Positions 22,276-38,934 of a stretch of 64,000 nt of DNA are shown here, piece after piece. The position numbers were made by a program, and so were the translations under genes. The notes under the pieces were generated by a model. The model saw nothing but the letters and a program-made list of their open reading frames with translations. It had not been told where the DNA came from and did no database searches. Source of the DNA: Tabrizicola sp. (GTDB taxonomy: Bacteria > Pseudomonadota > Alphaproteobacteria > Rhodobacterales > Rhodobacteraceae); the NCBI RefSeq assembly GCF_022842145.1, contig NZ_JALHQD010000001.1, positions 564,127 to 628,126 on the forward strand, written 5' to 3'. The first letter of the stretch is position 1. The number at the start of each line of letters is the position of its first letter.

Positions 22276-22648
22276 CACCACCGGCCCCGTAGGTTGGGGC
22301 GTGCCCTGACTCCCTGTCATCCATTCACCCCCAAGACACTGCCCGTCACCCTCGCGCCCCCTTGTCATCCCCGCAAAACGGCGACCAATACCCTGCCACC
22401 CCAACCGGACCCCCATCTGCGCGAGAATGCCATGCCCGTAGGGTGCGCTACAGCGCACCAACCTCTGTGATCAACCGGCACCAAAAGAGGCCCGTTTCCG
22501 CCCTCCGTCGGGCGCACCACCACTCGACCCGAAAAGCCTTCTCACCCACACTTCCTCCGTCCGCTCGGGGGATCGAGAGTGACTATCTATTTGCGGGTTA
22601 ATTCCGTGGATGTAGGAGTATGCTGACAAACATGCCGCCTCAGGGTCC
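22276..22648. repeat. Gene-free divergent gap with a REP-like hairpin
   Basis: About 370 bases between the rpsD promoter and the next gene. A REP-like palindrome (GGTGCGCTACAGCGCACC) lies at 22442-22459. The part after about 22560 has lower GC (ctatttgcgggttaattcc) and is likely the promoter side of the islet gene at 22649. No tRNA or small ORF with a plausible ribosome site was recognised. Confidence 0.5.
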
Positions 22649-23287
22649 ATGCCGATGACTGACAAGATCTGGGTTTCCTACGCGCCGCAAGAATCCCAGC
22701 TCGTGCGAGGCTTCTGGGGCGCCCTTCGGCATGAAGAGCCGCCAAACTCGGTAGAATTCAAGGCTCGAAAAGAAACCTGGAAGCAAAACGACTTGGGCCT
22801 TCCTTTGCCCGCCGAAAAGTTTCCTAGAAGCCTCTTCCATGTCAATCCGTGGAAGTTCAAGGAGACAATTCAGCCCCACATGCATGCGGGCTACCAGTTT
22901 GTCCGCGCCGATGCAGCAGAGATTCTGCGACAATACGACCTGGGGCAGGGCGCCCTCTATCCTTGCGCCTTTTATGAGCATGACAAGACCCGACTGGTGA
23001 CGGATCAGGTCTTTTGCCTGAACTACGGCACCGCGAAGGACACCGTGGTGTTGGAAAAGTCAAAGGTCAGACCCTTTCGAGGGTCACCATTTTATCACGC
23101 GCCGGATGCACCCCTCAAAGGTGATGAGATCGTGGTCCGACGCTCTGTCCTTGAAGGGCACGATCTCTGGGTCGACCCCAGGATGGATCGATGCTTCTTC
23201 ATCAGCGACCGGCTGGCGCAGGCGCTGCAGGCGGCCAAGATGAAACGGGCCTTCAGGATTTATCCTTGCACGGTCGATTCAGAGTAA
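22649..23287 (+). CDS. Hypothetical protein, possible Imm11-like immunity fold
   Basis: A 212-residue soluble protein, not firmly recognised. It starts MPMTDKIWVSY; a second ATG two codons on is equally possible. The C-terminal pattern FISDRLAQALQAAKMKRAFRIYP resembles the closing part of Imm11/DUF1629-type proteins (immunity proteins of polymorphic toxins), but the match is weak and no toxin gene is adjacent. Base composition is lower in GC than its neighbours, suggesting transfer. It is convergent with the acuI-like gene, with an 82-bp repeat between them. Confidence 0.6.
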   Translation: MPMTDKIWVSYAPQESQLVRGFWGALRHEEPPNSVEFKARKETWKQNDLGLPLPAEKFPRSLFHVNPWKFKETIQPHMHAGYQFVRADAAEILRQYDLGQGALYPCAFYEHDKTRLVTDQVFCLNYGTAKDTVVLEKSKVRPFRGSPFYHAPDAPLKGDEIVVRRSVLEGHDLWVDPRMDRCFFISDRLAQALQAAKMKRAFRIYPCTVDSE

Positions 23288-23354
23288 GACTCACGCTCCA
23301 GTCGTAAATGGAAAGTGGTTCGTCCTGCTGGAAGTGATGAAACTGCACCCCCAC

Positions 23355-23436
23355 CCCTTAACAAACCCCTAACGCCCACATCTAACCCATTGGAATCCCT
23401 TGCGGCCCCCAGCTGCCCACGCGTGGGCACCCCTCA
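23355..23436 (-). repeat. 82-bp inverted repeat, copy A
   Basis: Matches 34023-34104 in the opposite orientation at 77 of 82 positions. Read on the minus strand it begins with the TGA stop of the acuI-like gene, then the perfect palindrome TGCCCACGCGTGGGCA, and ends in TTAGGGGTTTGTTAAGGG. It separates two convergent genes. Confidence 0.9.
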
Positions 23437-24423
23437 GAGGTTCACATCCACCACCACCCGCCCCTGCACGCCCCCCTTCAGGATCGCCGCGCCCAAGGCA
23501 GGCAGCTCCCCCAGCCCCGCCACCCGGACCATCGCCTCCAGCTTCCCCATCGGCAGGTCCGTCACCACCCGCTCCCAGGCCACCACCCGCCGCACATAGG
23601 GGACCGTCACGGAATCGATCCCCAGCAAGTTCACCCCCCGCAGCAGGAACGGGATGACCGAGGCCGGAAGCGAAGCCCCCCCCGCCAGCCCCACCGCCGC
23701 GACCGACCCCCCGTGCTTCATCTGCCCCAGCACCCGCGCCAGCATCGCCCCCCCGACCGCATCCACGCACCCCGCCCAGGTCTCGGCTTCCAGGGGCCGC
23801 TTCACCGTCTCCGCCAGCTCCTCCCGGGCCACGATCCGGGCAGCCCCAAGGTCGCGCAGATACCCCTCCGTCTCCGCCCGCCCCGTCACCGCCGCGACCT
23901 GGTAGCCCAGCTTCGCCAGCAAAGCGACCGCGACCGACCCCACGCCGCCCGAGGCTCCCGTGACCAGCACCTCGCCCTTGTCAGGGGTCAGCCCATGCTC
24001 CTCCAGCGACATCACCGCCAGCATCGCCGTAAACCCGGCCGTCCCCACCGCCATCGCTTGCCTTGTCGTCAGCCCCGCAGGCAGCGGCACCAGCCAGTCC
24101 GCCTTGACCCGCGCCTTCTGGGAGTAGCCTCCCCAATGCACCTCCCCGACCCGCCAGCCGGTCAGCACCACCTTGTCGCCCGGCTTGTACCGCTCAACCG
24201 AAGACGCCTCGACCACCCCCGCAAAGTCGATCCCTGCCACATGCGGCCAGGCCCGGACGATCCCCCCGCCGTTGGAAGACAAGGCCAGCCCGTCCTTGTA
24301 GTTCAGCGTCGAATACTCGACCGCCACCGTCACGTCCCCCGCCGGCAGCGCGCTGTCGTCCAGCTCGCGGACACGGGCCACGGCTGCGTCGCCTTCCTTC
24401 TCCAGAACCAGTGCGCGGAACAT
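23434..24423 (-). CDS. acuI: AcuI-type acrylyl-CoA reductase / zinc-free MDR
   Basis: A 329-residue medium-chain dehydrogenase/reductase without the structural-zinc cysteines. YSTLNYKDGLAL near residue 45, the nucleotide-binding GASGGVGSVAVALLAKLGY and GAVGGxM-like VDAVGGAML fit the YhdH/AcuI subfamily, which reduces acrylyl-CoA to propionyl-CoA with NADPH and protects dimethylsulfoniopropionate-using Rhodobacterales from acrylate. Start at MFRALVLEK behind GGAGG; an ATG four codons upstream is less well placed. The stop lies inside an 82-bp repeat. Confidence 0.85.
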   Translation of the reverse strand: MFRALVLEKEGDAAVARVRELDDSALPAGDVTVAVEYSTLNYKDGLALSSNGGGIVRAWPHVAGIDFAGVVEASSVERYKPGDKVVLTGWRVGEVHWGGYSQKARVKADWLVPLPAGLTTRQAMAVGTAGFTAMLAVMSLEEHGLTPDKGEVLVTGASGGVGSVAVALLAKLGYQVAAVTGRAETEGYLRDLGAARIVAREELAETVKRPLEAETWAGCVDAVGGAMLARVLGQMKHGGSVAAVGLAGGASLPASVIPFLLRGVNLLGIDSVTVPYVRRVVAWERVVTDLPMGKLEAMVRVAGLGELPALGAAILKGGVQGRVVVDVNL

Positions 24424-24519
24424 GTTCGCCTCCATTTTTGATCGGCCTCAGTCGGCCCGGCGGAAGCCGGATTGTCAACCCGACGCCACTGCCGCACTGT
24501 CCCCTCAAAGGAGACTCGA

Positions 24520-25404: not shown

Positions 25405-25496
25405 GGAGCTATTCGGATTCTGGAAGACAACCAGTCGTGTAGACGTCTTTAGTGGTGACTGTTTTGTATCCGATCAGAATGGAACCGGTGGACCAT

Positions 25497-26288
25497 CTAC
25501 TGGATGTAACGTGCAGTGTTGTACTCGAGCATTTTGGCGCGAACTGGCTCATTGGACTCATCGTCAGGATCGAAGCCAAAAATGCAAGCCTCCACCCCCT
25601 TTTCATCCAACTCGAGACTAAGGCGGTAGGTAACGCATACTATCAGCATAGGGTGCCCTGAAGTAATACTTCCTTTGTCGGAACGATACGAAAAACCACC
25701 TCGATGGGGTGATACAAATGAAGTTGTCTCTCCCGGAAAAATGACTGGATTTCTTATCCCTCGACGGTGCTCGATACAGTGTGTAGAAAATATCTTGAGT
25801 TGCTCCCACATCTGCTGAAAGTGCGGCCTGCGGATCGCTTCATAGTGGACAGCTACATCGTATGCGGGTGACTTGCCCTTGTTAACAAGATCAAACGTCC
25901 ATTCCAAATAGATGCCTCGATCAGAAATTTGCACATCACAGTATGCTTCCCGCTGCAGAGTCACCCAAGGGCGTTGCTCTGAGCGCATAATGCGGTTGGC
26001 CTCATTCGCGGCATTGGCGGCAGCGACCGCCGCTTGATTAGTTTGAATGGTTTGGGTCAGTGTATCCTTGATCAGGAAGACTGCATATAGACTTATGCCT
26101 GCTGCAATTAGCCCAATGAGAGCCATCACCCATTGTGCGAGGGTGTCCTTAGTTTCAACCAGTACACCATTGTGATCCAACCATGTTTGATAGTCGGGTC
26201 CTATAAGCCAAACACAAAGAGCAAATGTCAGACCAACTCCAATCACTAGGCCAAGCGCAAAGCCGTTCCGCCCGCTGCCACCAAACAT
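25497..26288 (-). CDS. Hypothetical membrane-anchored protein (low-GC islet)
   Basis: A 263-residue protein, not recognised. There are two hydrophobic segments, around 10-30 (LGLVIGVGLTFALCVWLIG) and 52-75 (WVMALIGLIAAGISLYAVFLI), then a short coiled-coil-like stretch (IQTNQAAVAAANAANEANRIMRSEQRPW) and a soluble C-terminal beta-rich domain (WTFDLVNKGKSPAYDVAVHYEA), a layout seen in many accessory-region proteins. GC content is clearly below its neighbours and it sits between two core genes, so recent transfer is likely. The function is unknown. Confidence 0.65.
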   Translation of the reverse strand: MFGGSGRNGFALGLVIGVGLTFALCVWLIGPDYQTWLDHNGVLVETKDTLAQWVMALIGLIAAGISLYAVFLIKDTLTQTIQTNQAAVAAANAANEANRIMRSEQRPWVTLQREAYCDVQISDRGIYLEWTFDLVNKGKSPAYDVAVHYEAIRRPHFQQMWEQLKIFSTHCIEHRRGIRNPVIFPGETTSFVSPHRGGFSYRSDKGSITSGHPMLIVCVTYRLSLELDEKGVEACIFGFDPDDESNEPVRAKMLEYNTARYIQ

Positions 26289-26318
26289 TTCAGCAAACTC
26301 TCCGCAATCGCTTAACCC

Positions 26319-31194: not shown

Positions 31195-32288
31195 TGCACC
31201 GCCCCCTTCAGCCGCGCGACCAGACCGGGCCGGATCACTCCGCCCACCGCGGGAATGAAGGCACCTGCACCCAGCACGGCCGTCAGGGCGTCATATCGCC
31301 CGCCCGAGCCGACCGGAGGCAGTCCGTCAGCCAGGAAGCTGAAGACGAAGCCGTCGTAGTACTCCAGCGCCGTTCGGCCGTGGCTGGCCTCAAACGCCAG
31401 GGTTGCCACGTCGACGCCCCGCTCTGCCAAAGCGTCCAGTCGCGCCGCGAACCGGTCCACGGCCGGGCCAATGGCCGGCAGCATCGCGGTAATCCCGCGC
31501 AGGTGGCTAAGCGCATGGGCGGCAGGGGCCTCCAAGCTGAGCAGATCGTACAGCAAAGCCGCTTCGGTCGCCTTGATCGGCGGAGTTTCCGCATCGGCCA
31601 CCAGCGCCTCGGCCCGCGCAGCGATCTCCTCCGCCGAACGCAGTCCGACGAAGGTGCCTGCCTCTTCGATCAGTTGCGACGGACTGCCCGCCTTCAACCG
31701 CTCCAGCAGCCTGACCCGATCCGCAGGAACTGGAGCCCGCCCGGCAAACCTGTCCAGCAGCGCCCTGAACCGCACCGGCCGCCAGACGTGCCGCAGCAAG
31801 GCAGCCTTGCGCCGTTCGGTCGTCTCCAGCCCCCGGACGGCGGCCATCAGGATGCCGATATCCCCGGTGACCGGGCGCAGGTTCAAACCCGCCAGCAGGT
31901 CACGGAACAGCGCGAACACCTCGGCATCCGCCGCCTCCGGTGCGGCCCGGTCGAAGACCTCATACCCCACCTGCAGGTACTCGCTGGCGCGACCCGAACC
32001 GCGCATCTGCTTGCGGAAGACCTCGCCCAGATAGGCATAGCGGGCCGGCTCCGCTCCATGCGCCATGTGCGCCTGAACGACGGGCACCGTGAAGTCCGGC
32101 CGCAGCATCATCTCGCCGCGAACCGGATCGTCCGTCACATAGGCCCGCGCCCGAATATCCTCGCCGTAAAGGTCCAGCAGCGTCCCCGCTGGCAGCAGGA
32201 TATCCGCTTCGACGGGCACTGCACCCGCGGCGACGAACGCCGCGAGCAGCCGCTCGCCTTCTGCGCGGATCGCCGCCTTCTGGGTCAT
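31191..32288 (-). CDS. hisZ: ATP phosphoribosyltransferase regulatory subunit
   Basis: A 365-residue paralogue of the histidyl-tRNA synthetase catalytic core, with class II motif remnants ([23 protein letters not shown]) but no anticodon-binding domain and a degenerate final motif ([14 protein letters not shown]). It forms a hetero-octamer with short HisG and makes it histidine-sensitive. Its stop and start overlap hisG and hisS by 4 bases each, so the three are translationally coupled. Confidence 0.95.
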
Positions 32289-33754
32289 TGGCCCAGCATC
32301 TTTCGGACGGCCGCCACCAATTCAGTCCGCGGCACCTCGACCTGTGCCGGGCGGTCCTTCCATTCCTCCAGCGTCGCGCTTTCGGCGATCTTCGCGCCAA
32401 GGATCAGGTCCTTGAGGATGACCGTGCCCTTCTCGGCCTCATTCCCGCCCTGGATCACCGCGACGGGAGACTGCCGCTTGTCGGCATACTTGAGCTGGTT
32501 GCCGAAATTCTTCGGGTTGCCCAGATAGGCCTCGGCCCGGATCCCGGCCTGCCGCAACTCGCCGACCATGCCCATGTAATCGGCCATCCGGTCTCGGTCC
32601 ATCACGGTTACAACCACCGGGCCCGCGCTTTCGGCCGTGCTGCGCCCCTTGGCCCGAAGCGCGGCCAGCAGCCGGTCCACCCCGATGGAAACCCCGGTCG
32701 CCGGCACATCCTGCCCGGTGAAGCGCTTGACCAGCCCGTCATACCGCCCACCCCCGGCGACCGAGCCGAACTGGCGCTTGCGGCCCTTTTCATCCAGGAT
32801 CTCGAAGGTCAGCTCGGCCTCGTAGACCGGCCCGGTATAGTAGCCGAGCCCCCGCACGACGCCGGGGTCCAGCACGATCCGGTCCGGCCCGTAGCCCTGC
32901 GCATCCAGAAGGGCGGCGATCCCTTCCAGTTCATCGACACCCTCTGACCCGATGACCGAGGCCCCCACCAGCTCGCGCAGCCGGGCGACCGTTGCAGCAC
33001 CCGTGTCGCGCCTGGCGGTGGTGAAGCCCATCACGATTTCGGCCTGTTCAGCTGAAAGACCTGCACCTTTGGTGAAGTCTCCGCTGTCGTCCTTGCGGCC
33101 CTCTCCCAAGAGGGCGCGGACGCCGTCTGGCCCCAGGCGGTCGATCTTGTCGATGGCTCGCAGAACGATGCCGCGTTCGGCGTCCTTGTCGTCCCCGGCA
33201 AGGCCCGCCACTTCCATCACGCCGTTCAGGACCTTGCGGTTGTTCACCTTCACCACGTAGTCGCCGCGGGGGATGCCGACTTCTTCCAGGGCGTCGGCCA
33301 GCATGGCGCAGATTTCGGCGTCGGCGGCGACAGAGGCAGAGCCGACCGTATCCGCGTCGCACTGGTAGAACTGGCGGAAGCGGCCGGGGCCGGGTTTCTC
33401 GTTCCGCCAGACGGGGCCCATCGCGTACCGGCGGTAGGGGGAGGGGAGGTCGTTGCGGTACTGGGCGGCGACGCGCGCGAGAGGGGCGGTGAGGTCGTAC
33501 CTCAGGGCCAGCCAGTCCGCGTCCTCATCCTGCCAGGCGAAGACGCCCTCGTTGGGGCGGTCGACGTCGGGGAGGAACTTGCCGAGGGCCTCCACGGTTT
33601 CGACGGCCGAGGTCTCCAGCGGGTCGAACCCGTACCGGTGGTAGACGGCGGCGATGCGGTCGAGCATGGCTTTCCGTTCGGTGACCTCGGCCCCGAAATA
33701 GTCGCGGAATCCCTTCGGGGTCTCGGCGCGGGGGCGGCGGGGTTTGTCGGCCAT
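32285..33754 (-). CDS. hisS: Histidyl-tRNA synthetase
   Basis: A 489-residue class II synthetase: motif 1 region around [17 protein letters not shown], motif 2 [18 protein letters not shown], histidine-specific [13 protein letters not shown], motif 3 [12 protein letters not shown], and a C-terminal anticodon-binding domain. It is longer than the E. coli enzyme because of an insertion in the middle, normal for alphaproteobacteria. It charges tRNA-His. First gene of the operon, divergent from slyX with 70 bases between. Confidence 0.96.
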
Positions 33755-33824
33755 GGGCGGGACCTTCGCTTTTGATCGGGGTCCGTGTATCCCGTGGGTG
33801 AGGAACGGGCAAGCGGGGGGTGTG

Positions 33825-34025
33825 ATGGACCGGGTTGATGAGCTGGAGGAACGGGTGGCCCATCTGATGCGGGCGGTGGAGGACCTGTCGGACGTGGTGG
33901 CCCGTCAGGCGGGGGAGATCGCGGGGCTGGAGCGGCGGGTCCGGCTTCTGATGGAGCGGGCGGCGGCAGAGGAGGCTTCGGGAGGGGGCTCTGTGGAGGC
34001 GAACGTCCGCCCGCCGCACTGGTGA
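33825..34025 (+). CDS. slyX: SlyX-like small coiled-coil protein
   Basis: A 66-residue protein: a heptad coiled coil ([33 protein letters not shown]) followed by the conserved RPPHW end of the SlyX family. A ribosome site (GGGGGG) precedes the ATG at 33825. The family has no established biochemical role. The TGA stop is the first three bases of the 82-bp repeat copy B. Confidence 0.85.
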
Positions 34026-34104
34026 GGGGTGCCCACGCGTGGGCAGGTGGAGGCCGCAAAGGATTCCAAGGGGTTAGCTGTGGGCGTTAGGGGTTTGTTA
34101 AGGG
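34023..34104 (+). repeat. 82-bp inverted repeat, copy B
   Basis: 77 of 82 bases identical to 23355-23436 in opposite orientation. It begins with the slyX TGA stop, then GGGG and the perfect 16-base palindrome TGCCCACGCGTGGGCA. Base composition drops sharply right after its end, at the edge of the ATPase-nuclease islet. Confidence 0.9.
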
Positions 34105-34155
34105 TTTGGCGCTGTCCTTACAGAGATCAAAACTGATTATTCGACACAAACGGTC

Positions 34156-34184
34156 TTGGAACTTTACGCGAACATTGTGATACT
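34156..34184 (+). promoter_or_regulatory. Putative promoter of the ATPase-nuclease gene
   Basis: TTGGAA (34156-34161), 17-bp spacer, GATACT (34179-34184) preceded by TG in the extended -10 position. It lies in the low-GC DNA right after the repeat, so the islet gene seems to bring its own promoter. Confidence 0.4.
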
Positions 34185-34249
34185 GTGCGGCACTTGCCTC
34201 CTCGCAAACATCTTGGAGTTGAGTTCCCTCTGATATACGGTGTGATCCA

Positions 34250-36190
34250 ATGGAAGAGCTGAGGGTTAAGAATTTGAGTGAGTTGCAAGGCACTCTTTTC
34301 GATGAGCGATTTCTTGGAAAGTACGCTGGTTCCATCATGTCGGACCCAACGACTGCGCTTGTTGAGCTTGTTGCAAATGCTTGGGACGCTTACGCCACAG
34401 AAGTTCATATTTCTTGGCCAGAGCGCGGCAAGAAGGCCTTTTTCTCAATCCGGGATAACGGATGCGGAATGACTAAGAGCGAGTTCTCCAAGCGTTGGAG
34501 AACGCTCGACTACGACAGGGTTACCCATCAGGGGAACATGGCAGAACCACCTTCGGGATTGCCGGGTGCGCGACCGAGACGAGTTTACGGAAACAACGGA
34601 AGAGGCCGCCATGCCGCTTTCCATTTTTCCTCTCCCTATAAAGTAATCACGACCAAGGAAGGCACGCGCTGCACGTTTTCCGTCTCACAGGGAACACTCA
34701 ACCCAATTGAGATTGACTTGGAAGAAGAGACTGCGGGAGATTTCGACAGCGGAACAGAGATACTTGGTTTGAGCCCTATTGGAAGTTCTCTTGCTCCCGA
34801 GGAGGTTCGCAGTATCCTCAGCACAAGATTCCTGCTTGATCCTCAGTTTAAAGTCACTGTTGATGGCATTTCAGTGACATTCTCGGATGTACCACAGGAT
34901 CAAATTCAGGAACTGAAAGTTGATGTCAAAGGCCTTGGCATCGCCATAGTTCGGGTGCTCGACTCCAGTCGGGCAGACCGCACCTCTAAGCAACATGGCA
35001 TTGCGTGGTGGGTCAACAACCGACTTGTGGGAGAGGCAAGTTGGGCAGCCTTTGTTGACAAAGTCATTGACGGCAGGAAAGAAGAAGCAAAGCGATACTC
35101 TTTCGTTGTCGAAGCGACCTTTCTCAAACCAGAAGACGTCCTTCCCGACTGGTCGGCGTTCCGAGATGAGAGCGCAAACTGGAAAATTGCTAAACCAGCG
35201 ATCCATGAGAGGATTCGCGCTGAGCTGGCGGAGCTACTTAGTGCAAAGCGCAGCATTACTCGCAACCAGATTCTTCAAAGCCAAGCGACTAAGGTCCAAG
35301 CTTTACCAAAGTTAAGCCAAGACAGATGGACAGGGATGCTGGATGCCCTCATTGAGCGGTGTCCAAGTCTTGGAGACACACAGATTGCCCAAGTTATGGA
35401 CATTCTAGCGAACATGGAGTTGGCACAATCACAGTACAGTTTGCTCGATAAGCTGCATGGTCTGTCCCCAAATGATCTGGACTCCTGGAACAGTCTTCTT
35501 GAGGAGTGGACAATCAAGGCAGCGAAAGAGGCTTTGGACGAGATTGCTCGGCGGCTCAAGCTGATTGAGGAGATTCGCCAGAAGACTGCGTCCACCTTAA
35601 CTAGAGAAGTCCAAGACCTGCAGCCACTATTCGGGCAATCACTATGGATATTTGGTCCGCAGTTCGAGAGTATAGAGTTTACGTCGAATAAGGGAATGAC
35701 CCGGGTTGTAAATCAGCTTTTCGGATTGAGTGAAGAGGGTTCGCTTCGGAGACCCGATTTTGTTGTTCTTCCAGATAGCACGGTTGGCTTCTACGACCGG
35801 CCAAGCTTTGACCATGAACACAATCAGAGCGGAGTCGATACGCTAATCATTGTTGAACTCAAGCGGCCGGGCGTTCCACTTGGATCGCGGGAAAAGAACC
35901 AAGTTTGGGATTACGTTAAAGAGCTGAGAAATAAGGGGCTCATTTCTTCAGACACTTACGTAACGGGATACTTACTTGGTGATTCAATCGAAAAACAAGA
36001 GTCTGAGCCTTTGCGAGTGGGGGATCGGACAATTATTCGTCCAATGCTGTACAATACCTTTATCGGACAGGCCGAAAAGCGAATGCTTAACTTGCATGCA
36101 AAGCTGATGGATGCGCCATTTATGATTGAAGCGCTGAAGGCTGCCGAACCAGTCCAAGCGGACCTTCTACTGGACCCGACGCTTCAGTAG
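34250..36190 (+). CDS. GHKL ATPase fused to a PD-(D/E)XK-like nuclease (candidate defence protein)
   Basis: A 646-residue protein. Residues about 20-220 form a GHKL ATPase: ELVANAWDA (Glu39 and Asn43, the N box), DNGCGM at 69-74 (G1 box), GNNGRGRHA at 114-122 and SGTEI at 167-171, most like prokaryotic MORC/Hsp90-type ATPases, not histidine kinases. A helical region follows to about 480. The C-terminus has PDFVVLP (Asp503), IIVELKRPG (Glu536, Lys538) and Gln551, the spacing of a PD-(D/E)XK nuclease core. GC content is far below the neighbours, and the gene ends 3 bases from the convergent ParB-like stop. No partner gene (methylase, helicase) is present. A single-gene anti-phage or anti-plasmid function is inferred. 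Confidence 0.8.
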   Translation: MEELRVKNLSELQGTLFDERFLGKYAGSIMSDPTTALVELVANAWDAYATEVHISWPERGKKAFFSIRDNGCGMTKSEFSKRWRTLDYDRVTHQGNMAEPPSGLPGARPRRVYGNNGRGRHAAFHFSSPYKVITTKEGTRCTFSVSQGTLNPIEIDLEEETAGDFDSGTEILGLSPIGSSLAPEEVRSILSTRFLLDPQFKVTVDGISVTFSDVPQDQIQELKVDVKGLGIAIVRVLDSSRADRTSKQHGIAWWVNNRLVGEASWAAFVDKVIDGRKEEAKRYSFVVEATFLKPEDVLPDWSAFRDESANWKIAKPAIHERIRAELAELLSAKRSITRNQILQSQATKVQALPKLSQDRWTGMLDALIERCPSLGDTQIAQVMDILANMELAQSQYSLLDKLHGLSPNDLDSWNSLLEEWTIKAAKEALDEIARRLKLIEEIRQKTASTLTREVQDLQPLFGQSLWIFGPQFESIEFTSNKGMTRVVNQLFGLSEEGSLRRPDFVVLPDSTVGFYDRPSFDHEHNQSGVDTLIIVELKRPGVPLGSREKNQVWDYVKELRNKGLISSDTYVTGYLLGDSIEKQESEPLRVGDRTIIRPMLYNTFIGQAEKRMLNLHAKLMDAPFMIEALKAAEPVQADLLLDPTLQ

Positions 36191-36193
36191 CAA

Positions 36194-37030
36194 TCACCCC
36201 CTCCCAAACCACTCCTCCACCTTGTCCAGCACGTCGTCGATCAGGCCGGGGGACCTCGCCTGGGGGCCGGTGAAGCGGAGGAGCCAGCCGGTGGGGGTGG
36301 GCTCTCGGGTGATCGTCAGGCCTTGGCGGAGGCGCAGCAGCCTGCGGGGGCGGCGGGTGGTGGGGTCCACGGGCTCGCGCGCGATATCCATCAGGACGGG
36401 GCGGAGGGCGGACCATTGGGTCTCGGGTCCCCTGCCCGCGTGCGGGTGGAGGGTGGCGGTGAGGAGGTCCTCATGCCCGCCCATCACGGCGCTGGCGAGG
36501 GTGTCGAGTTGGCGGATGGTCAGGGTTTCGGGGGCGGTGAGGAGGGGGCCGAGCGCCTCGACCACTGTCGCATGGGCGCGGAGGCGTTGGCGGGAGGAGC
36601 GGGGGAGCGAGGGGAAGAGGGCGGCGATGGCGGCGTCGGGGGTGTCGAAGTGGGACTCGGTGACCGCGTTCAGGATGAGGGCGGCTTTTTCCCAAGGCGA
36701 GACGGGCTCGCGCACCTCGTTCTCGGTCACCATGGCGGTGAGGGCCTGGGCGACGGATTGGGGGGAGCGGAGGAAGGCGGGGATGGTGGGGAGGCCGAGG
36801 TGCCCGGCGGCGGTGAGGCGGCGGAGGCCGGAGATGAGGCCGTAGGTGTGGGTTCCGGCCGCATGGGGGCGGGGGGTGGAGAGGGCCCAGACCTCGATCG
36901 GGGTGCGGAGGCCCTCGGTCGCGATGGAGTGCTGGAGTTGGGCGAGGGCTGCGGGGTCCAGCGTGGTGCGGTCGCGGAGGAGGGCGTGGGGGTCGATTGA
37001 GGTGAGGGGAAGGTGGTGGAGGGGGTCCAT
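36194..37030 (-). CDS. Orphan ParB-like protein
   Basis: A 278-residue protein. An N-terminal ParB/Srx-type domain (DPLHHLPLTSIDPHALL, then YGLISGLRRLTAAGHLGLPTIPAFL, with the G.RR..A signature) is followed by a helical KorB/HTH-like region (VSPWEKAALILNAVTESHF, SRQRLRAHATVVEAL) and a C-terminal winged part. ParB family members bind DNA and often CTP; some are nucleases. No parA, parS-like inverted repeat or plasmid replication gene is adjacent, so segregation is not assured. Start at 37030 behind AAAGGAG; a start 11 codons upstream lacks such a site. Confidence 0.75.
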   Translation of the reverse strand: MDPLHHLPLTSIDPHALLRDRTTLDPAALAQLQHSIATEGLRTPIEVWALSTPRPHAAGTHTYGLISGLRRLTAAGHLGLPTIPAFLRSPQSVAQALTAMVTENEVREPVSPWEKAALILNAVTESHFDTPDAAIAALFPSLPRSSRQRLRAHATVVEALGPLLTAPETLTIRQLDTLASAVMGGHEDLLTATLHPHAGRGPETQWSALRPVLMDIAREPVDPTTRRPRRLLRLRQGLTITREPTPTGWLLRFTGPQARSPGLIDDVLDKVEEWFGRG

Positions 37031-37095
37031 GCGTGATGCTCCTTTGGCAGGAGGGAAGCGCATGGGGGTTAAGGCGGCGTGAGGCGGGCGGGCGG

Positions 37096-38085
37096 TCAGG
37101 GTTTGCGCGTCATGCGGCGACGGCGGTCCTTTATGCGGTCCGTGGCGGCGTCGGTGCCGTCGTGGAAGGAGCCGAACCAGCGGTCCCAGGGGACCTCGGC
37201 GGTGCCGTAGTTGCATTCGAAGAAGCGGTGGTGGAGCTGGTGGTGGAAGTCGCCGGCGTTGATGAGGCGGGTGTCCTTTGCGAGGAGGCCCTCGAAGCCG
37301 GCGTGGGAGAAGGAGGGGCCGATCATCTTGATGTAGATGTGGACGAGGAAGATCACCGGGTGGGAGGGGACGATGAAGTGGATGAGGACGGCGGAGGCGT
37401 AGAGGAGGCTTTCGACGGGGTGCATGGAGAGGCCGGACCAGGGGCCGATGTTGATGGAACGGTGGTGGAGCGCGTGGACGCGGGCGTAGAGCGGCGGCCA
37501 GTGCAGGAGGCGGTGGACGAAGTAGAAGTGGGCGGAGGTGAAGATGGGGACGGCGAGGAGCCAGGCGAGGAACCAGAGTTCGTTGCCGGTGAAGGCGAAG
37601 GTGGGGATGACGTTGTTTGCGGTGCCCCACCAGTAGAGGACCTCGAACAGCGTCCAGGCGGCGACGCCGGAGGTGAGGCTGTGGAACATGTTGTCGAGGA
37701 TCTGGTCGCGGAAGGCGAAGGAGCCGTTGTCGCGCATCAGGGGGCGGGCGTCGTATTTCAGGCGGTCGCCCTGGAGGGTGAAGGTGAAGAGCCAGAGGTG
37801 GAGGGTGCCGGCGTAGAGGGTGAGGAGGAGGAGGTTGCGGGCCCAGATGGCGAGGACCCAGCCGGGGGCGAGGGTCTGCATGGTTTCGGGGCTTGGTTGG
37901 AGGAGGGTGTAGACCAGGACCGCGGTGGCGAGGAAGAGGGTGCCGGAGGTCAGCTGGACCCAGCGTTTGGTCAACCACCAGAGGGCGGCGCGGGGGTTCG
38001 GGGGCCAGTGGAAGAGGGCGGAGTCCGGGATGGGGAACTGCGGGTGGTGGTTCCAGATCTCGCGGCGGGGGGGCTCGTCGGGCAT
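37096..38085 (-). CDS. Sterol desaturase / fatty-acid hydroxylase family membrane protein
   Basis: A 329-residue membrane di-iron enzyme. The three histidine clusters are in place, HRLLH, HALHH and HHQLHH, plus a late H near the C-terminus, separated by hydrophobic segments. Family members hydroxylate or desaturate sterols, carotenoids or acyl chains. It starts only 3 bases past the stop of the PanB-like gene, so it is co-transcribed with the sugar operon. A role in that pathway is not obvious, and it may simply be the distal gene. Confidence 0.88.
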   Translation of the reverse strand: MPDEPPRREIWNHHPQFPIPDSALFHWPPNPRAALWWLTKRWVQLTSGTLFLATAVLVYTLLQPSPETMQTLAPGWVLAIWARNLLLLTLYAGTLHLWLFTFTLQGDRLKYDARPLMRDNGSFAFRDQILDNMFHSLTSGVAAWTLFEVLYWWGTANNVIPTFAFTGNELWFLAWLLAVPIFTSAHFYFVHRLLHWPPLYARVHALHHRSINIGPWSGLSMHPVESLLYASAVLIHFIVPSHPVIFLVHIYIKMIGPSFSHAGFEGLLAKDTRLINAGDFHHQLHHRFFECNYGTAEVPWDRWFGSFHDGTDAATDRIKDRRRRMTRKP

Positions 38086-38088
38086 GGG

Positions 38089-38934
38089 TTATCCGTGGAG
38101 GGGGCGGAGGCGGTCGAGGGCTTCGGCGAGTTTTTCGCGCTCCTCGGGCGGCATGGGGATGGAGGTGGCGGCGTCGGGGAACTGGCTGGTGCGGACGGCG
38201 TCGGCGAAGGCGGTGAGGGCGCGGCGGCGTTCGGTGTCGAGGGCGGCGCGGAGGGGTTTGAGGTCTCCGAACGGTCTGGCGTGGCGGGGGAGTTTCGGGG
38301 TGTCGCCGCAGATGTCGGCGGTGAAGAGAAAGACGACGTCGGTGCCCTGGCCGGAGCCGATGCCGTGGGTGATGAGTTTTGTGCGCTGGCTGATGGCGGC
38401 GGCGGCGTCCTCGGCGACGCATTCCAGTTCTACGGCGATGGCCCCGGCGTCTTCCAGGCGGCGGACGTCTTCAAGGATCGATAGGGCCTCGTCGGCGGTG
38501 CGGCCCATGGCGCGGAGGCCGCCGGTGGCGATGGACTTGCGGGGGATCAGGCCGGCGTGGCCCTGGATTGATAGGCCCTCGCGGGCGAGCATCTCGATGA
38601 TCTGCAGGCTACGGATGGTGTAGATGCAGTCGGCCCCGGCGGTGGCGACGCGGAAGGCTTCGCGCAGGACCTCGTCGGGGGTGACGAGGTGCGCCGCTCC
38701 GATGGTGGCGATGATGTACTGGTCGGGGGCGGCGGCACGGGCCTCGTCGTAGCGCAGGGACGTGACGCTCAGGAGGTCGATGCCCGAGGCGGCGACGGCG
38801 GCGGCTTCCTCGGCGATGTCGCGGGTGGCGTTGGCTTGGGTCAGCTTCCGGTGTTCGGCTTTCGCCTTGCGGATGTCGCGGAGCGTCAGGTTCCGTCGGG
38901 CGGGCTGACCGCCGAAGGTGTAGATCGGGGTCAT
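38089..38934 (-). CDS. PanB-superfamily protein lacking canonical metal ligands
   Basis: A 281-residue homologue of ketopantoate hydroxymethyltransferase. Conserved: GHAGLIPRKS (125-134), AMGRTADEAL (142-151), VELECV with the catalytic-type glutamate (168-173), GIGSG (191-195) and DICG (207-210). But the metal-binding places of E. coli PanB (Asp in VGDSLG, Asp in the next strand, Glu in K.EGG) read here VTSL (57-60), IGAAH and YTIRSL. So pantothenate synthesis is unlikely; an aldolase or C1-transfer role on a 2-keto sugar acid is an inference from the operon. Starts with a 4-base overlap to the epimerase gene. Confidence 0.75.
   Translation of the reverse strand: MTPIYTFGGQPARRNLTLRDIRKAKAEHRKLTQANATRDIAEEAAAVAASGIDLLSVTSLRYDEARAAAPDQYIIATIGAAHLVTPDEVLREAFRVATAGADCIYTIRSLQIIEMLAREGLSIQGHAGLIPRKSIATGGLRAMGRTADEALSILEDVRRLEDAGAIAVELECVAEDAAAAISQRTKLITHGIGSGQGTDVVFLFTADICGDTPKLPRHARPFGDLKPLRAALDTERRRALTAFADAVRTSQFPDAATSIPMPPEEREKLAEALDRLRPLHG

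Follow-up and report, generated by a model that had tools for sequence, protein, structure and literature searches.

The window (the whole stretch of 64,000 nt that was analysed) contains a low-GC islet with a single gene, whose 646 aa product is probably a paraMORC3-type effector that works against phages as a single-gene system, i.e. a GHKL clamp-nuclease; the gene is kept as cargo in a slot of the chromosome. What is new is the location: the slot has exchangeable low-GC cargo and is bordered by a repeat. A defence role is predicted for the gene and is strongly suggested. It is the most economical account, since the protein has an architecture with a tested analogue, the distribution is sporadic, and the slot is used for defence in related species.

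The islet gene, its protein and its family

The GC content of the islet is 0.49–0.52, versus 0.65–0.71 in the nearest 5 kb on either side (1-kb windows). Low-GC DNA starts at 34103, straight after the border repeat (34030–34102). The sequence-only reading of this DNA had placed the start at 34105, which is about right, and it correctly described a single 646 aa open reading frame in low-GC DNA (measured here at ~50% GC) with a stop 3 bases from the next gene: the stop codon occupies 36188–36190, and the stop of the convergent ParB-like gene lies at 36194. The promoter-like sequence that it had assigned to the gene did not hold up. A scan of 2.6 kb for promoters of the sigma-70 type gave one site, at 36026 (1.2 expected), and none upstream of the gene. 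The features are collected in Table 1.

Table 1. Positions in the window of the features of the slot, the islet gene and a second slot
Feature	Position	Strand	Basis or remark
hisS, conserved core gene left of slot	32285–33754	-	TIGR00442; congener synteny
slyX-like gene, left neighbour of slot	33825–34025	+	reading frame kept in each of the 27 hisS loci read; name presumed from length and C-terminal RPPHW
Palindrome of border repeat, TGCCCACGCGTGGGCA	34030–34045		sequence
36-bp core of border repeat	34067–34102	+	unrelated cargo from next base
GHKL ATPase-nuclease gene, paraMORC3-like, 646 aa	34250–36190	+	open reading frame, translation, HATPase_c_3, family alignment
GHKL ATPase domain, residues 34–147	34349–34690	+	PF13589 match, E = 1.2e-17; invariant motif residues
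C-terminal PD-(D/E)XK / SduA_C-like region (predicted), residues 450–630, with E453, D503, E536-x-K538, Q551	35597–36139	+	alignment, Shedu profile comparison; fold without Foldseek confirmation
ParB-like gene (ParB_N), right neighbour of slot	36194–37090	-	PF02195 match; mechanical open reading frame 36194–38422, start approximate
Second, inverted border-repeat copy	23357–23429	-	core 23357–23392, palindrome 23414–23429
212 aa open reading frame, second-slot cargo, low GC	22649–23287	+	no PADLOC match

The GC skew changes sign at the slot (window 33000–36500) and is positive further right, although the genes to its left and right are mainly on the minus strand. A replication origin at the slot was considered and dropped. 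The skew has no clear halves in 20 sampled stretches of a congener chromosome, and the congener dnaA lies ~255 kb from its slot, so that the position of dnaA gives no explanation for the sign change.

The N-terminal half of the protein matches the Pfam model HATPase_c_3 with 64.6 bits against a cut-off of 25. The GHKL motifs listed in the sequence-only reading (Glu39/Asn43, DNGCGM, GRGRH, SGTEI) are present, and E39, N43, D69, G71, G73, G117 and G119 are invariant in the 28 aligned family members; the H of GRGRH is not conserved. For the whole chain, AlphaFold gave a model (mean pLDDT 76, pTM 0.53) that matches Hsp90 and MORC ATPases. Residues 183–289 display alpha/beta elements in this model, the matches to Hsp90 and MORC being at chain level and not for the S5 region separately. 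PHROG family 6203 (phage proteins, function unknown) matches residues 16–216 (window 34295–34897, E = 7.9e-38), thus some phages carry a related GHKL protein; phage records gave nothing but short GHKL matches.

In the C-terminal half, E453, P502, D503, K538, Q551 and Y555 are invariant in the 28 aligned members and position 536 is E or D, so the D503 / E536-x-K538 / Q551 core proposed from the sequence stands, with an E/D exchange. Pfam shows a weak HSDR_N_2 match at residues 529–574 (E = 0.02) and no match of the window protein to SduA_C (PF14082 / DUF4263) at E = 0.1; SduA_C is found in three of the 28 aligned relatives at E ≤ 0.05 (best 3.1e-6). A profile of the nuclease region aligned with five Shedu proteins (hhalign probability 63, E = 6.8e-5, 74 columns, without a negative control) shows the motif order E/Q..DF..ExKxP. 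More remote relatives from plasmids, which share 22% identity with the window protein, can be aligned to two Shedu proteins at ETNxWxxG, D-L/F and ExKxP; in this comparison the sequence of L260 begins at the match and not at its start codon. The C-terminal nuclease fold is thus favoured by SduA_C in relatives and by the Shedu profile, and not by structure comparison. No Foldseek hit reaches E ≤ 0.001 for a separate model of residues 450–630 (pLDDT 76), the top ones being SAM synthetases, with restriction enzymes weakly; the evidence for a nuclease therefore comes from the sequence. A profile search of PDB sequences with the nuclease domain gave no relative.

A species-level genome collection yielded 72 matched loci. 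Twenty-six (L021–L046) are family members, with record titles that name alpha-, beta- and gammaproteobacteria; the remaining 46 are short GHKL-only matches and are not counted. Among plasmids, 21 records matched, 13 with at least 80% coverage, the best eight at 46–57% identity. The alignment includes six of these 13 and, from the 26 loci above, excludes L026, L027, L034, L040 and L045, which are cut or interrupted. Full-length homologues (42–70% identity) retain the ATPase and nuclease residues, with E/D at 536 as the sole exchange. Among 390 genomes of the order, four have a strong match, this genome included; a full-length match was seen in 0 of 60 relatives searched. The homologue in genome G416 is split in two pieces on two contigs (L133, L134), by an assembly break or an insertion.

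The sequence-only reading expected homologues among defence genes and not in the position of a core gene. This agrees with what is found: the gene is not core, and defence genes occur near plasmid homologues and in congener slots. A defence-type gene lies within 10 kb of a close homologue in five of five annotated plasmid contexts. In L093 the stretch shown has an MmeI-like enzyme and Cas9, and in L094 the gene immediately upstream encodes an AbiEii-type protein. L095 combines a restriction endonuclease with a UvrD-type helicase and a protein of the AbiEii type, L096 has a HepT-like ribonuclease nearby, and in the Rhizobium plasmids L097 and its near-copy L098 a Shedu nuclease gene comes directly downstream, with a 10-base gap in L097 (7980–11385). 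RusA is preceded by a HepT-like or same-sized gene in L095 and L096; the recurring pairs are from Rhizobiaceae. A DEAD/DEAH helicase occurs in the neighbourhood of L097 and L098, and also next to two distant relatives, L099 and L257. No neighbour is common to all homologues, and the islet here holds the GHKL-nuclease gene alone. The suggested stand-alone action fits the one-gene islet, but not as readily those homologues with recurring neighbours (HepT-like/RusA, DEAD/DEAH helicase).

The slot and its border repeat

Stretches around the ParB-like gene, which displays 61–87% identity in congener hits (L101–L118), were taken from 16 congeners. In 14 of these, a gap of 1.8–3.1 kb lies between hisG-hisZ-hisS on one side and the ParB-like gene on the other, with a GC content lower than that of its locus in 14/14; L142 and L149 have no hisS in the stretch. 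A second set of 12 congener stretches contains three, L155, L157 and L160, with the same arrangement (the ParB-like gene is cut by a contig end in two of them), and three, L151, L161 and L162, that are too short to read the slot through. Thus 17 congeners and the window carry the slot. The other six (L152, L153, L154, L156, L158, L159) lack a ParB-like gene in the stretch next to hisS; GC does not fall below 0.59 there in any 500-bp bin, and slyX is not followed by the repeat. On the far side of the ParB-like gene, 15 congeners form three groups, none of which the window fits. Genome G019 has the order core, cargo, ParB-like gene without slyX ahead of the core. Integration at a tRNA was rejected, since neither the window nor any of 14 congener loci contains a tRNA or tmRNA. 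The scans gave no integrase match for slot cargo.

The 18 cargoes, main open reading frames included, are unrelated in pairwise comparison at E = 1e-5. Similarity is limited to the last ~550 bp beside the ParB-like gene in eight congeners, where REP-like palindromes are found. Cargo GC is 0.48–0.57, and the length from the core to the stop of the ParB-like gene is 1432–2776 bp at the 17 sites with a core. REP-like palindromes of the types GGTGCGC..GCGCACCCTACG and GTCGGGC..GCCCGACCTACGG are seen near the right border of several islets (L135, L137, L143, L144, L146, L147, L148, L155) and at window positions 22438–22460.

PADLOC matches (PADLOC 2.0, PADLOC-DB of 2023; E limit 0.01 for slot cargoes and 0.001 for other repeat copies and controls; open reading frames called mechanically, small ones scanned in part) are present in 8 of the 17 congener slot cargoes. 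They are Drt4/6 (E = 1.2e-164), ThsB/TIR (3.7e-39) together with PDC-S60, PDC-M48A/B (5e-146), PtuA-like (3.5e-25), ShosA/ShosT (7e-96), PDC-S13 (4.5e-14), dGTPase (4.4e-95) and PDC-S06 (1.7e-134). The nine without a counted match are L135, L137, L138, L140, L141, L144, L145, L146 and L148; L141 matches Phage_Mu_F, and L144 has a weak HTH match (E = 0.0042) that was left uncounted. One slot cargo we take to be a sulfotransferase and a glycosyltransferase. As a control, 0 of 10 nearby genes of normal GC match PADLOC; this is a small set, not GC-matched, and includes the first genes after repeat copies that have no low-GC block (L218, L221, L225, L226).

The border repeat has a length of ~70 bp and consists of a hairpin and a 36-bp core. 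After the slyX stop the order is the palindrome, a spacer and then CAAGGGGTTAGCTGTGGGCGTTAGGGGTTTGTTAAG, with cargo unrelated from the following base; the core ends in GTTAAG. The window has a recognisable repeat, as do 16 of the 17 congeners. L141 retains the hairpin only, and the core of L146 has two mismatches. When loci of one site are compared, the left-hand homology extends across the core, stops at most 24 bp past its end, and resumes beyond the cargo. The copies compared for core conservation were selected by their last 16 bases, the hairpin and the preceding 20 bases being unselected, so that this conservation is partly by construction.

Of the 32 genomes of the genus, 29 contain a 16-base core pattern with up to two mismatches; the total is 227 matches, versus 16 for the reversed control pattern. 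Outside the genus, a 21-base core was detected in 4 of 293 genomes, with one 2-mismatch copy each. Viral contigs gave no exact match of 21 bases to the repeat, E. coli genomes gave no DNA match, and the single Rfam match is below the gathering score and is taken as chance. One of these four, L242, has the hairpin and a 2-mismatch core with low-GC DNA on the same side; the low-GC open reading frame after the core is presumably a P-loop, KAP-type protein. From L242, the repeat platform may extend beyond the genus. The literature searched for the border repeat and for defence hotspots of this group, with subscription journals mostly outside its scope, gave no description of the repeat.

This genome has nine copies of the core. 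GC is 0.58 or less in the 800 bp on the cargo side in 5/9 and on the other side in 0/9; the background rate of such windows is 5.5% for the window and 6.5% for a congener that was sampled. Among 22 further repeat sites, the 800 bp that follow the core have GC ≤ 0.58 at 17 but not at the other five (L218, L221, L225, L226, L229). Nearby open reading frames match PADLOC in 7 of 16 other-copy cargoes scanned: dCTPase (dCTP deaminase, E = 9e-154), AbiLi/AbiLii (4e-91, 1e-27), PDC-M55C (5e-80), Old (6e-218), Old/GajA-like (4e-61), PDC-S33 (4e-10) and a type II methyltransferase (4e-128). Because 9/17 slot cargoes and 9/16 other-copy cargoes have no defence match, the slot is not exclusive to known defence.

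One of the copies forms a second slot in the window (22400–23430). The inverted repeat lies behind the 3′ end of an open reading frame at 23434–24435 and is followed by the 212 aa open reading frame and then by one of 206 aa, which we take to be rpsD-like. The cargo region differs among congeners (L222, L233, L234, L235, L236), and L235 has a type II methyltransferase. Another low-GC open reading frame in the window (25497–26288, minus strand, 263 aa, within 25405–26318) has no repeat core beside it in the sequence read.

Possible roles of the gene and the slot

In the proposed mechanism, the N-terminal GHKL module would bind ATP and dimerise, and the helical middle (residues ~309–447) and C-terminal parts would clamp shut on foreign DNA. 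Clamp closure would activate a PD-(D/E)XK nuclease of the Shedu/SduA_C kind, which would cut the invading DNA. The gene is one interchangeable cargo of the slyX/ParB-like slot, where related species have other compact defence genes. The open reading frame, its motifs, the family with its scattered occurrence, and the slot with what it contains are observed; for the 646 aa protein we infer an ATP-gated clamp, nuclease activity, a DNA target and an anti-phage effect. Defence, as put forward by the sequence-only reading, is the best-supported role, with a conserved sporadic family, a fit to paraMORC3 and VcSduA, and defence cargo in congeners; the nuclease fold is the part that Foldseek does not confirm.

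The protein could be a solitary restriction enzyme related to BbrUII/HgiDII that cuts at a sequence or a modification, its methyltransferase lost or never needed. The best curated match is indeed to the NCBIfam model of these enzymes, NF050001, and PADLOC gives weak matches to REase_II (E = 1.1e-8) and MzaB, again N-terminal. The NF050001 match, however, covers residues 34–214 only, with 81 bits against a cut-off of 550, and leaves the C-terminal half unmatched. The islet has a single gene, no methyltransferase is present among the scanned neighbours, and a sequence-specific enzyme lacking one should harm its host; we regard this origin as unlikely. A modification-dependent enzyme would not harm the host, and this form is therefore close to the main reading. 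It is very improbable that the protein is a MutL-related one for DNA repair or chromosome maintenance, with no defence role. MutL is the nearest by sequence to the GHKL half among solved structures, but the MutL equivalog model gives 39.5 bits against a cut-off of 180, and this genome has a separate MutL-like GHKL protein of 647 codons on a different contig. In addition, the gene is present in 4/390 genomes of the order and lies in a slot used for unrelated cargo.

A horizontally acquired gene may also be idle here, or serve another conflict, e.g. with plasmids or as one component of a larger system whose helicase or other partner is unlinked. The helicases near some homologues point this way, as do related families that the accessible part of Iyer et al. 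ties to helicases and restriction systems (PMC2292703). The open reading frame is intact, however, with every catalytic-site residue kept, the islet has no helicase, and the single-gene VcSduA works alone according to the accessible text on it (PMC12137116). This makes an idle or differently employed gene improbable, and a single-gene anti-phage effector remains the preferred reading.

As to the slot, there is about an even chance that the repeat is linked to terminators at tolerant sites of convergent genes and is not an exchange site, cargo having entered by homologous recombination in the flanks. The hairpin sits after stop codons of genes, copies without low-GC cargo occur (5/22 sites read, 4/9 in this genome), and no recombinase was found with the border repeat. 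On the other side, a core of ~36 bp is conserved at unrelated loci, homology between loci ends so close to it, and the six congeners without slot cargo are also without the repeat. Possible agents at the core are a recombinase and the ParB-like protein; alternatively, the repeat could mark tolerant sites.

A more tentative view, which we hold at somewhat less than even chances, is that compact defence genes are acquired or exchanged in this genus through a dedicated platform, marked by the ~70 bp element. The element, at 3′ ends of core genes, would mark several slots per genome. Single systems, mostly of 0.7–2.8 kb and integrase-free, would start one base after the core and be swapped between species. 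The ParB-like gene would always accompany the element at the main slot and may act on it. Delivery might be by particles of small capacity (gene transfer agents) or by natural transformation. A GTA_TIM gene is present in 29 of 32 genomes of the genus, with no match in the whole genome studied here (G000). Gene transfer agents, common in the genus and not found in this genome, are thus a possibility as carriers.

The slot matters more than the protein. With a short DNA signature that points to the sites of compact defence systems, unnamed cargo genes, such as those of 9/17 congeners at the main slot, would become candidates for defence. The slot also raises the question of how defence genes without an integrase begin at the same base across species. 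Defence surveys would miss the branch of the window protein, since Pfam SduA_C, PADLOC 2.0 and NCBIfam leave it unnamed.

Relation to known systems

The paraMORC3 family is a computational prediction (Iyer, Abhiman, Aravind 2008, PMC2292703). In the accessible part of that paper, it has GHKL, S5 and a C-terminal RE-fold nuclease with E-D-ExK, and is sporadic, with a subset that stands alone without conserved neighbours, in proteobacteria and Bacteroidetes. By this description the window protein is similar, having GHKL motifs and a conserved C-terminal E-D-ExK; its family is likewise sporadic and proteobacterial, and the gene is single in its islet.

The closest tested analogue is VcSduA of Vibrio cholerae, with GHKL and DUF4263 in one gene. 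The accessible text states that phage defence is lost with E27A or K557A, and its authors relate VcSduA to paraMORC3 (PMC12137116). In the literature searched, the name paraMORC3 is used by this paper and that of Iyer et al. alone. By that description the likeness is of one gene with an N-terminal GHKL ATPase and a C-terminal PD-(D/E)XK, the latter predicted here from the sequence; E39 and K538 are likely the counterparts of E27 and K557. DUF4263 is recognised in VcSduA, as described there, whereas the window protein is below the reach of that model. Because VcSduA protects alone with GHKL and nuclease in one gene, the single-gene proposal has a tested precedent in another protein.

Shedu SduA shares the motif order and profile similarity with the family of the window protein. 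It differs in that the window protein has a GHKL ATPase ahead of the nuclease and does not match PF14082. The BbrUII/HgiDII enzymes share a GHKL-type N-terminal region with the window protein, in contrast to their unmatched C-terminal half and to an islet that lacks a methyltransferase.

Defence hotspots with interchangeable cargo are present in E. coli prophages and islands. The slot resembles these in that one chromosomal place has varying defence cargo among related genomes. Unlike them, it has compact cargo of 1.4–2.8 kb, no integrase match, and a repeat border that recurs in the genome.
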